From Pedobacter sp. BMA (GTDB lineage: Bacteria; Bacteroidota; Bacteroidia; Sphingobacteriales; Sphingobacteriaceae): a stretch of DNA of 64,000 bases. Below the pieces are notes generated by a model. The model was not told the DNA's origin and searched no databases. It saw only the letters and a list, made by a program, of their open reading frames with translations. Within the stretch, counting starts at the first letter, position 1. Each line of letters opens with the position of its first letter. Shown piece after piece: positions 52,286 to 53,266 of the stretch. The stretch covers positions 372,001-436,000 of the forward strand of contig NZ_LECU01000002.1 of NCBI RefSeq assembly GCF_001027745.1, written 5' to 3'. Made by a program: the position numbers and the translations under genes.

Positions 52286-52317
52286 TTTACGTCATAGATT
52301 AGTATATTTACGTCATA
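52286..52317. promoter_or_regulatory. Direct repeats TTTACGTCATA upstream of the HTH gene
   Basis: Exact copies at 52286-52296 and 52307-52317 are 21 bp apart, with a partial TTTACATA at 52276. They lie between the HTH gene and the divergent sigma-factor unit, fitting cooperative binding on one DNA face. Confidence 0.55.
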
Positions 52318-52431
52318 ATACATCTTATTACATCGAATTATATATGATATTCGATGGTTTTATTGTTTTTTGCAACTATATGTCCTATTTAGAAAGTTCG
52401 AAAACTAAATTTAAAGGACAGTATTTTTTAA

Positions 52432-52439
52432 TAACTTTG
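52432..52439 (+). promoter_or_regulatory. Bacteroidota -7 element for the ECF sigma transcript
   Basis: TAACTTTG matches TAnnTTTG exactly. No TTG is seen at -33. A transcript starting just downstream would carry a leader of about 250 nt before the sigma start codon. Confidence 0.5.
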
Positions 52440-52445
52440 CAGTTC

Positions 52446-52699
52446 TAAATATACAATTAGGACTGCCAAACGAGCTTCGTTACTAAATCTGGTAAATTTA
52501 TCCAAGCGAAGTAAGTACTGCATCGAAACCTTATACAGGCTATAGGGTACGGTGCTTGCTTATTTTTTACTTGGAGCCTCCCGCAAGGTTGGTCGGCCCA
52601 CCAGAGCCATGTAGTAGAGGATAGTAAGTTGCCGTGCCCTATTGCCATAAAATAGACACGCTCTTCTCCTCCTTGGGGCTCATCAAAATATGATGAGCG
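52446..52699 (+). ncRNA. Structured 5' leader of the ECF sigma operon
   Basis: The leader encloses a long-range pairing of ATAGGGTACGG (52542-52552) with CCGTGCCCTAT (52632-52642), with one G-U pair. Within it lie smaller pairings such as CTTGC with GCAAG. A perfect hairpin, GCTCATCA/TGATGAGC with loop AAATA (52678-52698), ends 1 nt before the ATG. It has the look of a cis-regulatory RNA or a recurrent structured element. A minus-strand frame across it has no support. Confidence 0.5.
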
Positions 52700-53266
52700 A
52701 TGGCAAAGGTTCAAAAAATTTTAGATTCAGAATTACTAATCCAATTAAAAAATGGAAACCATTCCGCATACACCGAAATTTACGACCGCTACTTTTATTT
52801 AATGTTCACTTTCGCTTACAAAAAGCTTAGGGATGAAGAACTTGCAAAAGACTTTGTTCAAGAACTTTTCATAACCTTATGGAACAAAAGAGAATCACTT
52901 TCCGAAAGGGGGAAACTGTCGTCTTACCTATACATATCTATCAGGAGCAGAATTCTTGATCATTTTGCACATCAAAAAGTAGAAAGTAAATATTTAGACT
53001 TCTTAAAAAGTTATCAAATTAAGACAAATGAGCAAACGGATCATTTGATAAGAGAGAAAGAACTGGGCAAATATATTGACAAAGAAATCCAAAGGCTTCC
53101 CAGAAAAATGAGGCAAGTTTTTGAACTTAGCAGAAAAGAAAATTTAAGTCATACCGAAATTGCTAAGAGATTAGAAATCACTGAAAACAACGTCTCGCAA
53201 CACTTATCTAATGCTTTAAAAATCTTCCGAATTAAGCTTGGAAATATATTTCCGTTATTATTATAA
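52700..53266 (+). CDS. ECF-type RNA polymerase sigma factor
   Basis: The 188-residue protein has sigma region 2 (AYTEIYDRYFYLMFTFAYKK, AKDFVQELFITLWNKRESLS) and region 4 (LPRKMRQVFELSRKENLSHT, EIAKRLEITENNVSQHLSNA). This is the Bacteroidota FecI-like class that pairs with FecR and TonB receptors. It is followed 67 nt later by FecR. A start-codon-adjacent hairpin may control its translation. Confidence 0.9.
   Translation: MAKVQKILDSELLIQLKNGNHSAYTEIYDRYFYLMFTFAYKKLRDEELAKDFVQELFITLWNKRESLSERGKLSSYLYISIRSRILDHFAHQKVESKYLDFLKSYQIKTNEQTDHLIREKELGKYIDKEIQRLPRKMRQVFELSRKENLSHTEIAKRLEITENNVSQHLSNALKIFRIKLGNIFPLLL

Follow-up and report, generated by a model that had tools for sequence, protein, structure and literature searches.

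The leader upstream of an ECF sigma factor gene in Pedobacter sp. BMA is, as judged from comparison of related sequences, one copy of a family of large folded RNAs that head many different genes of Bacteroidota, and this new and widespread family probably consists of cis-acting leader RNAs that work as a conformational switch. The reading is based on copies at dispersed loci, among which a covarying core of three helices (Pa, P2, and B), two competitions between RNA strands and a narrow spacing to the start codon appear to be maintained ahead of very different genes.

Organization of the leader at the sigma factor locus

In the window, by which we mean the whole stretch of 64,000 nt analysed, the region from 52432 to 52702 contains in order a -7 promoter element, a 5′ inverted repeat (P0), the structured RNA, a linker, an 8-bp hairpin and the ATG of the sigma gene (Table 1). 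The encoded protein matched Sigma70_r2 (E 5.4e-13), Sigma70_r4_2 (E 2.9e-13), and the NCBIfam model Sig70_bacteroi1 (E 1.7e-39). An earlier note on this DNA had described an 11-bp long-range stem with one G-U pair enclosing smaller stems, a perfect 8-bp hairpin abutting the start codon, and a -7 element at 52432. The long stem (here helix B), the hairpin, which ends one base before the ATG at 52700, and the -7 element, which fits TAnnTTTG, were all recovered as described; the helix B region was also listed as wider arms of 15 nt that are 87% complementary. The smaller stems are present as well, but they form a pseudoknot with competing pairings, which had gone unnoticed.

The plus strand folded at -79.7 kcal/mol (z -2.92), with 2 of 200 shuffles equally good, and the minus strand was unremarkable against its shuffles (z -1.25); conservation, however, is a stronger test than the fold energy of a single sequence. 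A protein-coding reading was rejected because the pair statistics point to RNA and the overlapping ORF runs on the other strand. P0 exhibited two-sided changes at three pairs among the 11 copies compared. Its first base is also the final one of the -7 element. P0 may therefore function partly as DNA, and it could equally well be an operator bound by the divergent HTH protein or a hairpin of the RNA.

Table 1. Positions of the features at the sigma factor locus, in window coordinates.
Feature	Position	Strand	Remarks
Divergent small regulator gene, 139 aa	51783..52202	-	Cro/C1-type HTH, HTH_26 E 3.4e-05; usual partner of the RNA
-7 promoter element TAACTTTG	52432..52439	+	TAnnTTTG type
P0, 5′ inverted repeat GCAGTTCTAA / TTAGGACTGC	52439..52466	+	10 bp, one G-U
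Structured RNA, 205 nt by covariance model	52439-52643	+	Model match
S1 GAGCTTC	52472..52478	+	5′ strand; partners S2 (52675-52681) or contributes to Pa
Pa hairpin	52475..52511	+	Arms 52475-52480 / 52506-52511
P2, Pa loop with downstream strand	52481..52613	+	52481-52483/52611-52613 and 52488-52493/52600-52605; pseudoknot with Pa and B
Helix A (alternative state)	within 52512..52562	+	52512-52515/52559-52562 and 52520-52525/52550-52555
Pb (alternative state, with A)	within 52512..52562	+	52528-52534/52542-52548
Helix B, the long-range stem of the earlier note	52542..52642	+	ATAGGGTACGG 52542-52552 / CCGTGCCCTAT 52632-52642; 11 bp, one G-U; excludes Pb and most of A
S2 GGGGCTC	52675..52681	+	Pairs with S1 or joins the start-codon hairpin
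S2:S3 start-codon hairpin	52678..52698	+	Arms GCTCATCA 52678-52685 / TGATGAGC 52691-52698
ECF sigma factor gene, 188 aa	52700..53266	+	Downstream of the RNA

Distribution and novelty of the RNA family

BLASTN against 59 relatives retrieved copies of ~70-74% identity from several congeneric genomes, in which they occupy different sites. A covariance model built from 11 copies (R1) matched 66 of 145 Pedobacter genomes at E <= 0.01, the copies being related and the counts therefore not independent, and the other 79 had no R1 match at this cut-off; the per-genome counts, which include weak and short-class matches and some extra rows antisense to a copy, reached a maximum of 5 sites. At E <= 0.001, R1 matches were found in 125 of 399 genomes of the family, in 12 of its 25 genera. 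A second model built from 72 copies (R2) matched 80 of 250 genomes sampled from the order, all 80 within the same family, and 11 of 295 genomes sampled from the class, 8 of which lie in six other families and carry the short subclass described below. With both models the window copy was the sole match in its own genome. A core pattern led to 29 named contigs, 27 of which had an R2 match; those within the family came from Pedobacter, Mucilaginibacter, and Olivibacter, those outside it from Pontibacter, Litoribacter, Echinicola, Belliella, and Algoriphagus, and Alistipes contigs had weak R2 scores of 23-37 bits. Alistipes apart, the contigs outside the family belong to the order Cytophagales, and the family itself to Sphingobacteriales.

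A scan of the window against Rfam 15 at gathering cut-offs returned no matches, and across 27 distinct sources with copies the scans returned only tRNA, rteR, and DUF805b matches, none of them over the RNA. The one sub-threshold match in the window, an LcrF thermometer at 52294-52363 (E 1.6), was taken as chance. The Bacteroidetes motifs Pedo-repair (RF01715), Flavo-1 (RF01705), and 6S-flavo (RF01685), listed in the tabulated part of PMC2864571, are likewise structured RNAs of this phylum, but none was found in these scans. Searches of an open-access library, from which most subscription journals and bioRxiv are absent, brought up no paper naming the RNA. Viral contigs gave no exact match to the single core pattern tried and no similar DNA was found on plasmids, and a phage- or plasmid-borne element was set aside on these results. 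We regard the RNA as a new family within a known kind, that of switch-like leaders, and its frequent association with a partner gene as unusual.

Covariation of the pseudoknotted core

Removal of 13 loci and one copy lacking S1 from 111 copies left 97, and 72 of these were aligned by MAFFT, not fitted to structure, after removal of 11 with long inserts and of 14 more that were near-duplicates for the most part (alignment A7). The pseudoknotted fold made up of Pa, P2, and B was paired in 94.0% of the 2438 cells. Two-sided changes occurred at 22 of 34 pairs and in 249 cells, compared with means of 13.5 pairs and 75.9 cells in shuffles, and the covariation score was 0.340, compared with 0.180 ± 0.005 after shuffling; none of 500 shuffles reached the observed value in any of these measures. 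When the pairing partner was slid, the score was 0.045-0.073, and pairing was down to 30-43% for slides of 1-3 columns. All six pairs of Pa carried two-sided changes, with 87.3% of cells paired in an alignment where the window row is displaced by one column at Pa, and helix B carried them at 9 of 17 pairs with 95.5% of cells paired. A single pair of P2 occurred across the 72 copies as AU in 23, GC in 22, CG in 15, and UA in 4.

By these alignment statistics, the core is a conserved RNA secondary structure with compensatory changes. The earlier note had proposed an unnamed cis-regulatory RNA and had named a lack of covariation in homologues as the result that would speak against it; covariation was found, the long stem being kept with compensatory changes, and its strength, together with the absence of Rfam 15 matches, argues for the proposal.

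Alternative pairing of the middle strand

Replacing B with A and Pb in the same alignment gave 93.2% of cells paired and two-sided changes at 18 of 34 pairs, with much of this support coming from P2 and Pa. In A and Pb alone, 89.7-99.2% of cells were paired, depending on the helix, and two-sided changes were seen at 5 of the 17 pairs; helix A varies little among copies. At least 10 of the 12 shared middle positions could be paired in both A and B in 70 of the 72 copies; as exchanging strands among copies still left 66 on average, and 70 at most, able to form both, the dual pairing is suggestive and not proof. At middle column 103, which varies in 14 copies, the A pair was kept in 6, the B pair in 11, and both in 3. 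For the window copy, the energies of the A and B states were -73.5 and -77.1 kcal/mol, a gap of 3.6 kcal/mol with the pseudoknots unscored. As to mutually exclusive structures, the comparisons appear to support B and the competition among S1, S2, and S3, but the covariation of A is modest.

Pairing and spacing at the start codon

The start-codon end was evaluated in 100 of 117 copies, the 17 omitted being the DUF6166 group, others without a nearby start, weak hits, and the tandem pair L019. In z-scores from single-base shuffles, the 62 nt around the start codon had a mean of -2.32 in the 100 copies, compared with -0.04 for 184 other starts at the same loci. A coarser measure, requiring at least 5 bases near the start in the 3′ arm, separated them less (98/100 vs 125/184 control starts). 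The RNA is positioned on the same strand upstream of the gene at a near-constant distance from its start codon, the ORF starting 40-79 nt past the model end in 71 of 106 downstream ORFs, with the DUF6166 group and others as exceptions. As for the earlier suggestion that the RNA controls translation of the sigma factor, a hairpin is conserved at the start codon regardless of which gene comes next, and sigma genes are only some of those that the RNA precedes.

Pairing of S1 with S2 was assessed in 95 of these 100 copies, the other 5 being without a recognized S1. A full 7-bp duplex was present in 42 of the 95, compared with a mean of 36 and a maximum of 41 when S1 was exchanged between copies 500 times, a narrow excess because S1 is nearly constant; an all-Watson-Crick duplex was present in 26, compared with a mean of 13.4 and a maximum of 21, and shuffled linkers gave a mean of 0.7 full duplexes. 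S2 sometimes tracked altered S1 sequences, as in GAGCTTC with GAAGCTC (L089 and L097) and GGGTCTC with GAGACTT (L158 and L160). Among the Cytophagales contigs with S1 GAGTCTC, S2 has AGACTC in L205 (6 of 7) and GACTC in L210 (5 of 7), and L191 retains GAGGCTC. At L083, L084, L135, L139, and L162, S1 had changed and S2 had not followed, leaving 5-6 of 7 pairs. Since S1 overlaps Pa, S1:S2 and Pa compete, and on these predicted pairings S1:S2 and S2:S3 compete for S2.

Promoter-like and terminator-like elements

TAnnTTTG, the -7 consensus used here in keeping with the relevant part of PMC7366714, occurred just upstream of 48 of 100 copies, a count in which the stretch searched lay too far downstream for six R2-located copies, compared with 77 of 4900 background windows (1.6%). 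Placed at the 5′ boundary, such an element would speak against a transcription start within the structure, which the earlier note had named as a second result contrary to its proposal. A U-rich 9-mer followed B in 46 of 100 long copies, compared with 12 of 100 farther on, and a U-rich tract was found around the end of the B strand in all 12 short-class copies examined, the 9-mers being positioned slightly differently for the two classes. The tract after B in the window, UAUUGCC, is a poor terminator, which makes translation control the likelier output there.

A promoter-like element at one end and, at the other, helix B with a U-rich tract, as in the 12 short-class copies, would also suit an independent trans-acting small RNA that lies upstream of these genes by chance and is terminated at B. 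Such an RNA would call for neither the start-codon hairpin of the long class nor the S1:S2 pairing, and we consider this quite unlikely. A further reading takes the RNA as a processive antitermination or polymerase-modifying element at operon heads, in which the fold would bind polymerase or a factor for read-through of later terminators and the hairpin would merely tune translation. The complex fold and the varied first genes, among them short ORFs that have thioredoxin- or SusC-like genes behind them, are in line with it, but antitermination needs neither the narrow start-codon spacing nor the pairing between the 5′ end and the start-codon strand, and the U-rich tract after B resembles a terminator inside the element; we judge it unlikely.

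Genes downstream of the RNA

By one rule, 106 of 111 copies were followed by an ORF of at least 60 aa. A domain scan covering 76 of these 106 identified 35 proteins with Sigma70_r2, 9 with HEPN, 6 with thioredoxin-like models, and 3 with DUF6166. The window genome has 48 listed Sigma70_r2 matches, 47 of them over the cut-off; scanning 30 of its sigma loci detected the RNA at one, the window locus, and a general ECF sigma leader was ruled out on this count.

In the DUF6166-like subgroup (L018, L021-L024, L057-L059, and L066), the RNA precedes DUF6166-like or similar proteins, with ORFs ~120-165 nt past the RNA and no recognized start-codon hairpin. Where no large gene starts at the controlled codon, a short ORF often does; such ORFs, of 14-129 codons, come directly after the leader at L149, L151, L159, L130, L205, L210, L212, and others, and often have thioredoxin- or SusC-like genes downstream. 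Their C-termini before the stop are alike in residues while the codons vary (KNIIKSPV, KPKNPI, ISAPE, and EKLPP), and these ORFs look like stalling leader peptides. At L160 (2824-4356), a single downstream ORF fuses matches to a SusC-type N-terminus to matches to a T4SS coupling protein, possibly a rearrangement.

The divergent HTH neighbour and the short subclass

At 94 of 117 copies, a divergently oriented ORF of 50 aa or more begins 30-330 nt upstream. HTH_3 was matched by 57 of these 94 neighbours, among which near relatives are included, compared with 6 of 105 genes one place further on, and HTH_26, which the window's neighbour also matches, by 54 of 94 compared with 4 of 105; the control comprised 105 of 106 such genes, one very long ORF being omitted.

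The short subclass measures ~140-150 nt in R2 coordinates, has the P2 core and the A/Pb strands in common with the long class, and carries an extra covarying helix, analysed in 24 of 28 copies. By eye, a small HTH-like divergent ORF was present at seven of the first twelve short-class loci, and at only three (L249, L253, and L268) of 20 further copies; 12 of these 20 had no divergent ORF by the rule used. Some short-class copies lie before SusC-like genes and others before response-regulator-like proteins (by eye). The latter include L251, L255, L259, L260, L262, and L263, where the RNA lies 35-305 nt before such proteins, also by eye, and where a GCAGG after the B strand could pair back with B. 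A separate longer-insert subclass (L103-L111, L163, and L165) spans ~211-235 nt from S1 to the B strand.

The frequent divergent gene raises the alternative of a protein-responsive leader, in which the HTH protein or a shared RNA-binding protein would bind the RNA and control translation. However, such a gene is absent beside most of the additional short-class copies. The 94 divergent proteins also differ greatly from one another, at a mean column identity of 7%, whereas the RNA core is conserved, and this contrast speaks against their recognizing the RNA directly; we give this reading only a small probability.

Two short-class copies lie near known RNAs, the matches being outside the RNA described here: L186 is ~1.4 kb from a match to the rteR sRNA (RF04181), and L184 is ~20 nt before a match to the DUF805b RNA (RF02914). 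These positions suggest that some copies are on conjugative elements.

Copies at dead-Cas12f/sigma operons

Dead-Cas12f/ECF-sigma systems carry out RNA-guided transcription. At L020, the gene after the sigma gene matched a nuclease-deactivated Cas12f (PDB 9n9c, E 1.1e-125), and L025 has a related gene; with the L020 protein as query, dCas12f homologues were found in 27 of 144 genomes of the genus. Among 20 dCas12f loci of the genus, R2 matched seven at E <= 1e-4; three of these matches were strong (131-170 bits) and the other four weak (24-28 bits). An element of the type GAGGCTGC..GCAGCC was found downstream of dCas12f in all 20 loci (L269-L288) and upstream in none. This element, e.g. GAGGCTGCTTGTACAGCCGTAGGGTGAG, is present in one to eight copies, with two or more in 13 of the 20 loci, and the same pattern did not occur in the 64-kb window. 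The downstream elements are probably arrays of guide scaffolds, to judge from their form and placement.

That some copies head dCas12f operons, as at L020 and L025, brings up the reading of the RNA as the guide of such a system. It shares a place in the same operons with the guide-like repeats, which differ in being short, often repeated and downstream of dCas12f; with this different element in 20 of 20 loci as the better candidate, the guide probably lies there and the RNA described here is an operon leader. Moreover, most RNA copies are in genomes without dCas12f, and the window genome gave no matches to the L020 dCas12f, TnpB NF040570, or PF07282, the last a weak test because PF07282 scores a real dCas12f at E 0.17 only. 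A guide role is thus highly improbable.

Discussion

In the favoured reading of a cis-acting conformational switch, the middle strand would pair either with the upstream strand, forming A and Pb, or with the downstream strand, forming B, and for S2 the choice would be between S3 at the start codon and S1 at the 5′ end, S1 also being part of Pa. The state combining B, Pa, and S2:S3 would hide the start codon and lead to low expression, and in many copies the same B state would leave a terminator-like U-rich tract after B. The state combining A/Pb, P2, and S1:S2 would free the start codon. The balance might be shifted by a signal bound to the core or by a protein, and a second input probably comes from the divergent HTH protein, through the promoter region that the two genes share.

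Riboswitches with large pseudoknotted aptamers, such as the cobalamin class, offer the closest comparison. Like them, the RNA is a large putative 5′ leader with a conserved core and a loop-to-strand pseudoknot, and it apparently has competing strands and a candidate start-codon or terminator platform; unlike them, it has no Rfam match, its controlled genes share no one pathway, and a divergent HTH gene is usual. A broader and more tentative reading, which we hold as a possibility only, is a Bacteroidota-wide cassette that usually unites an HTH gene of phage-repressor-like type with a pseudoknotted RNA switch shuttling two strands at once; it would answer one common intracellular signal and form a new riboswitch-like class. 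The targets of such a cassette might include sigma factors, HEPN proteins, SusC-type nutrient operons, stall-like leader peptides, and dead-Cas12f/sigma operons.

Nutrient uptake in Bacteroidota involves many sigma factors and SusC/SusD operons, and to our knowledge few structured leaders are known in this phylum. The family, which covaries and reaches five sites per genome, gives ligand searches a concrete target. It also raises a testable question: why a gene for a small DNA-binding protein is so often kept beside the presumed RNA switch when the type of protein and the gene under control keep changing. On some dead-Cas12f/sigma operons, such a leader would put RNA-guided transcription under the control of an RNA switch.
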